DNA from: Alphaproteobacteria bacterium
GTDB taxonomy: Bacteria; Pseudomonadota; Alphaproteobacteria; Micropepsales; Micropepsaceae
NCBI GenBank assembly: GCA_947473475.1
Contig: CANJBZ010000027.1
Location: forward strand, 1-58,472
Direction: 5' to 3'
Length of the DNA: 58,472 nucleotides
Below are positions 10,247-28,556 of the stretch, one piece after another; the stretch's first letter is position 1; every line of letters begins with the position of its first letter. The position numbers and the translations under genes were made by a program. The notes beneath the pieces were generated by a model, which ran no database searches, had not been told where the DNA came from, and was given only the letters and a program-made list of their open reading frames with translations.

Positions 10247-10390
10247 CCTCCCCCTTGTGGGGAGGCCGAAATTGATCGCGCCTTACGCGAGCAATTTCGG
10301 GTGGGGGGAGACTGTCCGCGGCAATCCCCCCACCCGAAATCCCTCGCGGCTGAAGCCGCGAGGGATTTCGACCTCCCCACAAGGGGGAGG
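10247..10390. repeat. 144-bp palindromic intergenic element (family A, copy 1)
   Basis: Lies in the 397-base gap 10088-10484 between rnhB and the radical SAM gene; nothing else is recognisable in that gap. It is bounded by two perfectly inverted 19-bp ends at 10247-10265 and 10372-10390 (left end CCTCCCCCTTGTGGGGAGG), each itself nearly palindromic. Inner arms AATTTCGGGTGGGGGGA and TCCCCCCACCCGAAAT are also inverted, and a CCTCGCGGCT/AGCCGCGAGG hairpin sits near the right end. A second, diverged copy is at 28426-28556. It carries no ORF, as expected of a non-autonomous MITE-like or REP-like element. Confidence 0.75.
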
Positions 10391-22119: not shown

Positions 22120-23094
22120 GTGACGCAGCGAAACGTACCTGAAACAATCGAGGTCTTCGCTCCGGCGAAGATCAATCTGTTTCTGCACGTCGGCGAGCGC
22201 CGTGACGACGGTTACCACGCGCTGGAAAGCCTCATCGCCTTCGCCGAAGCCAGCGACCATCTTACATTCGCACCGGCCTCTGATATCTCGCTTTCGATTA
22301 CCGGCCGCTTCGGCAAAGGCCTCTCCGCTGGTCGCGATAATCTGATTTTAAAAGCCGCACAGGCTTTAATCGCCTCGCCCCCCCTGGGGGAGAGGCCGTG
22401 CGCGGCGCAGCCGCGCGCGGGTGAGGGGGCGGTCTCTCCACCGCGCAAACCCGGCGCCGCAATCACCCTCGAAAAGAACCTCCCCGTCGCCTCCGGTATC
22501 GGCGGCGGTTCGGCGGACGCAGCCGCCGCCCTGCGCGGCCTGAACAAACTTTGGAATTTGGGCCATTCCGAAGACGCGCTTGCGCATATCGCCGCAACAT
22601 TAGGATCGGACGTTCCGGCCTGCGTCTACTCCCGTCCGTGCTGGATGGAGGGTCGAGGCGAGCGCGTCATCCTCGTCCCGCCGATGGCCCAATTCCCGCT
22701 GATCCTCATCAATCCTGGCGTGATGGTGCCGACGGGACCCGTGTTCGGCAGTCTGAACGCGCGCACCGGCTTGGGCGCGAAGCCGCCCGCAGGCGCAATG
22801 ACAACGGTGTGGGATCTGGTCGGCTACCTCAGCGGCGCGGTGAATGATTTGGAAGCGCCCGCATCGCATGTTGCGCCTGTCATCGAAGAGGTCTTGGCCG
22901 CGCTCGATCGCGAACCGGGTTGTGTTCTGGCGCAAATGTCAGGCAGCGGCGCGACCTGTTTCGGCCTGTTCGATCAGCAGCAATTCGCCATCGGCGCCGC
23001 TGAACGCATCGCGCAGGATCATCCGGACTGGTGGGTGAGGCTCACACGCATTGCGGCGCCGGATATCGGCTGGCCGCGCGACGGCACTCAATAA
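22120..23094 (+). CDS. ispE: 4-diphosphocytidyl-2-C-methyl-D-erythritol kinase
   Basis: IspE phosphorylates CDP-methylerythritol in the non-mevalonate isoprenoid pathway. The 324-residue product starts at a GTG. It has the GHMP-kinase pattern: substrate Lys in VFAPAKINLFLHV (residue 17), ATP loop PVASGIGGGSADAA at 122-135, and the C-terminal motif AQMSGSGATCFGLF near 272. It is about 30-40 residues longer than usual. The surplus lies at about residues 86-113, just before the ATP loop, and is encoded by a GC-rich palindromic element inserted in frame. The 3' end overlaps the convergent polyprenyl synthase gene by seven bases. Confidence 0.93.
   Translation: MTQRNVPETIEVFAPAKINLFLHVGERRDDGYHALESLIAFAEASDHLTFAPASDISLSITGRFGKGLSAGRDNLILKAAQALIASPPLGERPCAAQPRAGEGAVSPPRKPGAAITLEKNLPVASGIGGGSADAAAALRGLNKLWNLGHSEDALAHIAATLGSDVPACVYSRPCWMEGRGERVILVPPMAQFPLILINPGVMVPTGPVFGSLNARTGLGAKPPAGAMTTVWDLVGYLSGAVNDLEAPASHVAPVIEEVLAALDREPGCVLAQMSGSGATCFGLFDQQQFAIGAAERIAQDHPDWWVRLTRIAAPDIGWPRDGTQ
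22373..22460. repeat. palindromic element inserted in frame within ispE (family B)
   Basis: Starts with a CCTC-GCCCCC / GGGGG-AGAGG hairpin (22373-22395), continues with a GCGCGGC/GCCGCGC hairpin, and contains GGGTGAGGGGGCGGTCTCTC at 22419-22438. That 20-mer is identical to 26237-26256 in the glyQ–glyS spacer. It encodes the extra peptide SPPLGERPCAAQPRAGEG and following residues in IspE. The right border is approximate. Confidence 0.75.
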
Positions 23095-26166: not shown

Positions 26167-26304
26167 TCCCACCCTCCACTCAAGGGGAGGGTAGGGTGTT
26201 CTCCAATTCCCTCTCCCCCCCAGGGGGAGAGGGTCAGGGTGAGGGGGCGGTCTCTCGACCTGCAGACCCGTCGCGTTCGACCCTCCCTTAGGGAGAGGGT
26301 AGGT
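26167..26304. repeat. palindromic element in the glyQ–glyS spacer (family B)
   Basis: Occupies nearly all of the 183-base gap between glyQ and glyS. Outer parts ACCCTCCACTCAAGGGGAGGGT and CCCTCCCTTAGGGAGAGGGT are related hairpins. The central hairpin pairs CCCTCTCCCCC (26209-26219) with GGGGGAGAGGG (26223-26233). It is followed by GGGTGAGGGGGCGGTCTCTC (26237-26256), which is also present inside ispE. The operon is presumably transcribed through it. Confidence 0.75.
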
Positions 26305-26326: not shown

Positions 26327-28411
26327 ATGGCTGATCTGCTGCTCGAACTTTTCTCTGAAGAAATCCCCGCGCGCATGCAGGTGCAAGCCGCGAAGGATTT
26401 GGAGCGTCTCGTCGTCGGCGCGCTGTCCGATCGCGGTCTGTTGTTCGAAGCGGCAAAGGCTTTTGCCGGACCCCGGCGGCTGACGCTGGCCATCACCGGC
26501 CTGCCGTTCAAACAGCCCGATGTTTCGGAAGAGAAGAAAGGCCCGCGTGTCGGTGCGCCGGAAAAGGCTATCGAGGGCTTTCTCAAATCGGTTGGCGTCA
26601 CGCTCGACCAATGCGAAAAGCGCAACGACGCCAAAGGCGAGTTCTACGTTGCGGTGATCGCGCGCAAGGGCCGCGAAACCATGGAGGTGCTGTCCGAAAT
26701 TCTGCCTGAGGCCATCGGCAAATTGCCTTGGCCGAAGAGCATGCGCTGGGGCGATGGCGCATTCCGCTGGGTCCGTCCCCTGCACAGCATCCTCGCCACC
26801 TTCGACGGCGAAATCATCCCCTTTGAAATCGTTCTTTCCTCCCCCTTCGTTACGGGGGAGGTGGCGCGCAGCGCCGGAGGGGGCGCAGGGCGCGCCGTCC
26901 GCAGCGGCAACACCACGCGCGGTCACCGTTTCCTCTCGCAAGGCGAAATTACCGTTCGCCGCTTCGAGGATTACGAAGAAAGCTTGCGTAACGCCCATGT
27001 CATTTTGGAGGGGCAGGAGCGGCGCGAAACCATCCTGCACGATGCCAAGCAGAAGGCGTTCGCGCTCGGGCTGGAGTTGATCGACGACGAAGGCCTCGCC
27101 AATGAAGTGATGGGCTTGGCGGAATGGCCGGTGGTGCTGATCGGCCAGATCGATCCGGCCTTTATGGACGTGCCGGCGGAAATTCTTCAGACCTCCATGC
27201 GCACGCATCAGAAATATTTCGCGCTGCGCGATCCAGCGCGGGGCAAACTGGCCAATCGTTTCGCTGTCGTTTCCAACATGCTTGCCGACGATGGCGGTTA
27301 CGAGATCGTCGCCGGCAATGAGCGCGTGCTGCGCGCGCGCCTGTCCGACGCAAAGTTTTTCTGGGACCAGGACCGCAAGGTCAAACTGTCCGACCGTGTC
27401 GATACTCTGAAAGACATCGTCTTCCACGCCAAACTCGGCACGCAGATGGAGCGGGTTAGCCGTATCGAAGCCTTGGCAGGTGAAATCGCGCAGGCACTGA
27501 ATCTTTCCCCGGTGGAGGTAGAGCAGGCCAAACGCGCCGCGCATCTGTGCAAGGCGGATCTGACGACCGGCGTCGTGGGCGAGTTCCCCGAACTGCAAGG
27601 CGTCATGGGCCGCTATTATGCGCTGCATGACGGCGAACCGCAGGAAGTCGCCGACGCCATCCGCGACCACTACAAGCCGGTGGGGCCATCCGATGCCGTG
27701 CCGACATCGCCGGTGTCCATCGCTGTCGCGTTGGCCGACAAACTCGACACGCTCACTGGCTTCTTCGCCATCGACGAAAAGCCGACTGGCTCCGGCGATC
27801 CCTACGCGCTCCGTCGTGCCGCGCTCGGCGTTATTCGCATCGTTCTGGAAAAGAATGTCCGGCTGGGGCTCAAAACGGTCCGCAAATTCGGCGATGATTT
27901 GCTGGCCTTCTTCGCCGATCGTCTAAAGGTAGCGTTGCGCGACAAGGGTACCCGCCACGATTTGGTCGAAGCCGTGTTCGCTCTTGGTAACGAAGACGAT
28001 CTGGTGCGGTTGGTGCGCCGTGTAGAGGCTTTGCAGGCCTTCCTGAAGACCGACGACGGCGCCAATTTGCTCACCGGCTATCGCCGCGCCGCCAATATCC
28101 TTCGCATCGAAGAGAAGAAGGACAAGACCGAATATCGCGGTGTGCCGGACGGACTAAAGCAGGATGAGGAAATCGCGCTGCAACGCGCGCTCACTCACAC
28201 AAAGGTTGAAGCTGCCAAGGCGCTGCACGCGGAAGATTTCGAAGCCGCCATGAAGGCGCTGGCCTCCTTGCGCGTTCCGGTGGACCGTTTCTTCGACAAA
28301 GTAACGGTCAACACCGACGACAAGCTTCTGCGCGAGAACCGCCTAAAGCTTCTGTCGCAAATCGTCGAAACCGCGCACCAGGTCGCCGATTTTTCGAAGA
28401 TCGAGGGATAG
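26327..28411 (+). CDS. glyS: glycyl-tRNA synthetase beta subunit
   Basis: The beta chain of GlyRS, needed for tRNA recognition. The 694-residue protein has the family N terminus [22 protein letters not shown], the blocks [19 protein letters not shown] and [11 protein letters not shown] (about 195-205), [12 protein letters not shown], an HD-like domain near 400-560 ([40 protein letters not shown]) and a C-terminal anticodon-binding helix region. Between FEIVL and [10 protein letters not shown] it carries about 22 extra Gly/Ala/Arg-rich residues (about 171-192), encoded by a palindromic element. Confidence 0.95.
26838..26903. repeat. palindromic element inserted in frame within glyS
   Basis: CCTCCCCC (26838-26845) and GGGGGAGG (26854-26861) form a hairpin, followed by a GGCGC/GCGCC hairpin and GGAGGGGGCGCAGGGCG. 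The layout matches the intergenic palindromes. It encodes the extra peptide [20 protein letters not shown] in GlyS. The right border is approximate. Confidence 0.65.
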
Positions 28412-28425
28412 CCGCAAGCCCTTTA

Positions 28426-28556
28426 CCTCCCACTTGTGGGGAGGTCGAAATTGCGAAGCAATTTCGGGTGGGGGGAGCCTGTCCGGAAGCAGCCCCCCAC
28501 CCGAAATGCCTCGCGGCCTTGCAGCTCAGCATTTCGATCTCCCCGCATGGGGGAGG
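28426..28556. repeat. palindromic intergenic element (family A, copy 2)
   Basis: Shares its plan and long stretches with 10247-10390. The left end is CCTCCCACTTGTGGGGAGG, then TCGAAATTGC, AATTTCGGGTGGGGGGAG, a CTGTCCG centre, CCCCCCACCCGAAATG, CCTCGCGGC, and a right end CTCCCCGCATGGGGGAGG. It sits in the 378-base gap between glyS and ppdK (28412-28789). The remainder, 28557-28789, must hold the ppdK leader, but I see no clear promoter or riboswitch there; AAGAAGGAACCGGGG precedes the ppdK ATG as its ribosome binding site. Confidence 0.75.

Follow-up and report, generated by a model that had tools for sequence, protein, structure and literature searches.

glyS, encoding the beta subunit of glycyl-tRNA synthetase, lies at 26327–28411 (+) of the window, by which we mean the entire 58,472-nt stretch analysed, and bears an in-frame insert. 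Its 694-aa open reading frame aligns over the full length to E. coli GlyS (7yse, E 6e-118) and is the single match in the genome, which amounts to 3.87 Mb in a fragmented assembly of 66 contigs. By GlyS, the genome is nearest to uncultured Alphaproteobacteria. An earlier note on this DNA had proposed about 22 extra GlyS residues; comparison with other GlyS and with 7yse confirmed them and fixed their exact extent at codons 169–190 (26831–26896, +), where 22 residues replace approximately 2 ancestral codons, a net gain of 20 residues or 60 nt. Relatives mostly read PFE(I/F)-(A)G-(V/I)xSGN at this site, and E. coli GlyS 7yse, with no insert, shows a 20-residue gap there. The comparison comprised 109 aligned GlyS, of which one fragment ends short of the site, leaving 108 informative sequences, same-genus, family and class relatives included, and the insert was found in none of them. 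The site is a loop whose length varies in some distant lineages, none of which has the insert sequence; a conserved loop lacking the palindrome, which the note had named as the case that would speak against an element, was not seen in this alignment. The two nearest sampled GlyS, from genomes G001 (82% over its match) and G006 (78%), both lack the insert, and the insertion is therefore recent, postdating the splits from both.

AlphaFold modelling of GlyS, based on a 37-sequence alignment, gave a mean pLDDT of 91, with values below 50 only at residues 173–187, within the insert and between strands 167–169 and 190–194. If translated, the insert is most likely a disordered loop between two strands, without useful function. 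Such a loop, in an essential single-copy enzyme that is normal in other respects, fits a tolerated insertion, and we infer that the segment is both translated and neutral. Elsewhere in the protein, near query residues 516–524, GlyS of other genera in the family have insertions, each specific to its lineage, that reach about 90 residues (L048, L050, L056, L057). Just 3′ of glyS, an inverted pair of short C-rich/G-rich hairpins occupies 28426–28556. An Rfam search returned two matches only, neither of which reached the gathering score: one, to whalefall-1, lies downstream of glyS and overlaps one hairpin of this pair, and the other covers ispE on the opposite strand.

Architecture of the repeat unit

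The element core in glyS, as matched by positions 1–55 of a covariance model, spans 26835–26886 (+; 70.8 bits, E 6e-14); the glyS copy is itself among the 20 sequences behind the model, and blastn recovers the family independently of it. By sequence and fold, the C-rich/G-rich hairpin 1 (26838–26861, +) pairs CCTCCCCC with GGGGGAGG around the loop TTCGTTAC, and a second hairpin, GGCGC GCA GCGCC (26863–26875, +), occupies the position of the second loop. Both the palindrome formed by these arms and the GGCGC hairpin had been described before, and both are present in the sequence. They are followed by a purine tail, GGAGGGGG (26876–26883, +), which is the exact mirror image of GGGGGAGG and is a putative third strand. 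The consensus of oriented copies reads TTT-CCTCCCCCGT-TGTT-ACGGGGGAGG-TGG-(hairpin 2)-AC-GGAGGGGG-CGC. The first loop, 8 nt in glyS, is 4 nt in the consensus with the stem extended, while the second loop, 14 nt in glyS, is longer in many copies (to about 30 nt, more in a few) and foldable as a hairpin; unit length is mostly 50–65 bp.

Hairpin 2 is highly variable in sequence among copies, yet its pairing is kept. Across 16 variants, picked for near-identical stem and loop lengths, a choice that favours pairing, 97.5% of cells were paired as against 71% in shuffles, and double-sided changes affected 20 cells as against 7, with all slid controls far lower. The tail follows a second rule. Among 88 elements picked by hairpin 1 and hairpin 2 alone, it fits the mirror of its own purine arm, with A answered by A or T, in 70, compared with 2.4% for other arm types (here and in the covariation test the elements are related copies, and the 70 fits are not 70 independent events). 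The arm types include GGGGGAGG, GGGGGAAG, GGGGAGAG and GGGGAGGG, from this genome and from other genera. Pairing of the tail with the 5′ arm, considered in place of a third strand, needs A where several subfamilies have T, which makes it a less general rule than mirroring. When 80 alphaproteobacterial loci were scanned for hairpins more broadly, with no demand for hairpin 2, mirror fits (34) and direct fits (36) were not separated, because tandem hairpins confuse such a scan; the stricter 88-element scan does separate them. In one unit the first loop itself contains another palindrome, and the second loops of two others share an extra module (G000:C61:8861-8941; C2:29705-29796; C43:24824-24913), as if elements nest.

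Three other features of the window belong to this comparison. In ispE, a related in-frame element (22374–22430, +) consists of a GGGGGAGAG arm, a hairpin second loop and a GGTGAGGGGG tail. In-frame elements in two genes had been claimed in the earlier note, and both are indeed there with the same layout, but by sequence the ispE copy is to be assigned to another subfamily: when the ispE insert was searched with blastn, it matched elsewhere by stem or tail only, and a single subfamily for the two was rejected. The distinct ispE subfamily, the putative mirror-image third strand and the avoidance of genes by most copies all go beyond that note. Among aligned relatives, a comparable ispE insert occurs only in G001, as a TMECO-like unit (see below) with a 3-nt second loop, and at this site G001 and the present genome have the same unusual stem mismatch (CTCGCCCCC/GGGGGAGAG); these two sequences suggest that a single old insertion later had its second loop exchanged. 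The stretch separating glyQ from glyS contains CCCTCTCCCCCCCAGGGGGAGAGGGTCAGGGTGAGGGGG (26208–26250, +), a triplex motif with a 3-nt second loop that matches the TMECO pattern of PMC4666352. The third feature, at 10247–10390 (no strand assigned), is an intergenic inverted pair of a related subfamily, with a CCTCCCCCTTGTGGGGAGG stem, long unrelated second hairpins and a GGTGGGGGGA tail.

A dispersed family with copies inside genes

Searching the 3.87 Mb genome with an 83-bp glyS segment, blastn found at least 46 places (45 beyond the segment itself; best E 4e-15), and the covariance model at least 141 at E ≤ 1 and at least 69 at E < 1e-6, all of these counts being lower bounds. A chance palindrome is ruled out by the dispersed copies that both methods recover. 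Matches at E ≤ 0.01 occur in 6 of 6 same-genus genomes and in 31 of 36 genomes of the family; in other families they were found in only 5 of 24 genomes, mostly few and weak. By codon-usage score, most of the 69 strong copies are intergenic. Copies also cluster: 47 of 124 places (E below 0.006) lie within 250 bp of another, where approximately one neighbour is expected by chance, and the neighbour pairs are inverted in 23 of 24 cases.

The consensus is stop-free in 5 of its 6 frames, which, together with in-frame copies in several genes, supports the proposal of an element family that tolerates translation. A genome-wide search for coding copies yielded glyS, maf, a dnaE2-like gene (two copies), a spermidine-synthase-like gene and probably midA, and comparison of reading frames, also suggested in the note, showed that different frames and both orientations are in use. 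Copies were called coding only when open, by a codon score for which the window served as training set and, for a few genes, by homology, so the in-gene counts cover open copies.

maf (L011, G000:C10 near 6656) is a small gene with two in-frame insertions that represent two or more subfamilies: a copy with FSSPVVTGEVARASATKGA and a separate inverted pair of a third subfamily. Neither insertion is present in maf of 10 relatives. The dnaE2-like error-prone polymerase gene contains an in-frame inverted pair, read as SPSPVTTGEE (antisense) and LSSPVVTGEV (sense), which is absent from the relatives compared; in the polymerase gene of G009 (L312), SPSPSRGE stands at the same site, like a read-through triplex motif, and the polymerase loop seems to accept different elements. 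Two adjacent in-frame units lie in the MFS/spermidine-synthase gene, which in at least 3 relatives reads across the site with no such insert. The midA-like methyltransferase gene has one copy, probably an in-frame unit, in another frame. A solved homologue has a loop of about the same length there, and in relatives this loop is not much shorter; because of this similarity the copy may have replaced an existing loop. One further unit (C4:76584-76635, L285), after the end of leuS and directly before the likely lptE start, adjoins a likely start codon and was not counted as coding.

Mode of spread and alternative readings

It is highly probable, in our view, that the glyS insert is an in-frame copy of a dispersed, non-autonomous repeat built as a hairpin-looped class II triplex motif. 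The repeat would have entered glyS in frame after the split from the nearest sampled relatives, as a unit of pyrimidine arm, purine arm, second hairpin and mirror purine tail. The tail could run antiparallel along the purine arm as a third strand, and the sequence is consistent with formation of such a class II (purine-motif) triplex. Most copies would persist between genes, and the few in-gene copies where the reading frame is preserved by their length and the insertion falls in a loop that tolerates it; the glyS copy would be translated as a disordered loop. Spread may proceed by replication- or repair-linked copying and not by a resident REP transposase.

Y1_Tnp (RAYT) genes were absent from this genome in a search limited to the Y1_Tnp family, with control genomes positive. 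Among relatives, the presence of Y1_Tnp does not track copy number: G016, a single contig, has 44 copies and no Y1_Tnp, and G014 has three Y1_Tnp and no copies. Mobilisation by a RAYT is countered by this absence and lack of tracking. Direct repeats of at least 5 nt flank 6 of 58 copies, compared with 7.3 in shuffles, giving no sign of target-site duplication, and inverted flanks were none above shuffles. These results weigh against the most serious alternative, which we consider possible though rather unlikely, that the unit is a miniature transposon of the REP or RPE kind, mobilised in trans by some transposase (a RAYT or another), and that its mirror tail is no more than a by-product of a G-rich sequence. 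The family does resemble REPs and BIMEs in copy number, inverted pairs and intergenic bias, and intragenic REPs have been reported in DnaE2 and tRNA synthetase genes (PMC3733652); however, tails match their own arm far more than other arm types, which argues against a G-rich by-product.

The remaining alternatives concern the glyS copy itself. Removal of the element by splicing or bypass before or during translation, leaving GlyS unchanged, might be imagined for a strong hairpin in an essential gene, but appears very improbable: the glyS, maf and polymerase copies are stop-free and divisible by three in net length, neither of which would be needed if the element were removed, an argument that is weak since only open copies were called coding. 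The fragmented 66-contig assembly and the repeated nature of the element could likewise have led to a chimera in which a repeat was misjoined into glyS; in-frame joins in several genes, and a glyS copy distinct from all others (best other blastn match 88%), make such an artefact scarcely more credible. Least plausible of all is a natural GlyS loop or adaptive addition that is palindromic by coincidence, since, for all that site length varies in some lineages and AlphaFold gives a loop, the same DNA recurs at dozens of other genomic sites, the insert is absent from all other GlyS covering the site, and it is predicted to be disordered.

Comparison with known repeats

Based on these analyses, the glyS unit, as an in-frame copy of a dispersed repeat, acts like Rickettsia palindromic elements and intragenic REPs and fits neither definition, having no RAYT gene, REP tag or detected target duplication. 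The target-site duplication expected of a MITE was not above shuffles in the 58 copies analysed. Small palindromes, often in inverted pairs, are shared with GTAG REPs and their RAYTs (PMC3733652, PMC2817692), but the consensus has no GTAG-tagged hairpin and no Y1_Tnp gene was found in the genome. The intragenic REPs of Di Nocera 2013 (PMC3733652), those in DnaE2 and tRNA synthetase genes included, are of the CGTC and GTAG types. CGTC REPs, which have no dedicated transposase, resemble the present family in being alphaproteobacterial, palindromic, mostly intergenic, often in inverted dimers and in part intragenic. A CGTC REP is, however, a single 8–9 bp stem, almost always with A-T first pairs and mostly with a CCA end (PMC3733652), whereas the hairpins of the family consensus lack both A-T first pairs and a CCA tail; one subfamily happens to have a CGTC next to hairpin 2, read on the reverse strand.

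The classical case of in-frame palindromes is that of the Rickettsia palindromic elements (Ogata 2000; reviewed in PMC2229807), and a palindromic repeat in frame in conserved protein genes is what we find here. Those elements are 105–146 bp long with terminal inverted repeats and belong to Rickettsia; the present unit, mostly 50–65 bp and of another layout, is set apart from them by this description. In-frame insertion of palindromes now extends to uncultured Alphaproteobacteria, in a lineage whose genome measures 3.9 Mb, and offers a natural set of housekeeping proteins in which loops are encoded by elements read in several frames.

Our literature searches turned up no paper on exactly this combination of features. 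The closest structural counterpart is TMECO, CCCTCNCCC-N3-6-GGGNGAGGG-N3-GGGNGAGGG, among the class II triplex motifs described by Holder et al. 2015 (PMC4666352), which formed a triplex in vitro and not clearly in vivo. Both have dispersed proteobacterial copies and the order pyrimidine arm, loop, purine arm, loop, mirror purine strand. The glyS unit has complementary pyrimidine and purine arms with a short first loop (CCTCCCCC/GGGGGAGG) and a third strand mirroring the purine arm (G to G, A to A or T). In place of the 3-nt second loop of TMECO, or the 1–6 nt loops allowed in the ITxF search (PMC4666352), it has a hairpin with compensatory changes, and intrastrand triplex searches with loops limited to 6 nt would miss this hairpin-looped class. 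We tentatively raise the possibility, to which we give somewhat less than even odds, that hairpin-looped intrastrand triplex units are an unrecognised class of alphaproteobacterial repeats. Such units would keep a three-strand code of pyrimidine arm, purine arm and mirror tail, exchange the second hairpin freely, and enter housekeeping genes at coding loops, as translated inserts. Unlike TMECO as described, some copies lie in frame inside genes, which links intragenic palindromes to triplex-forming repeats.
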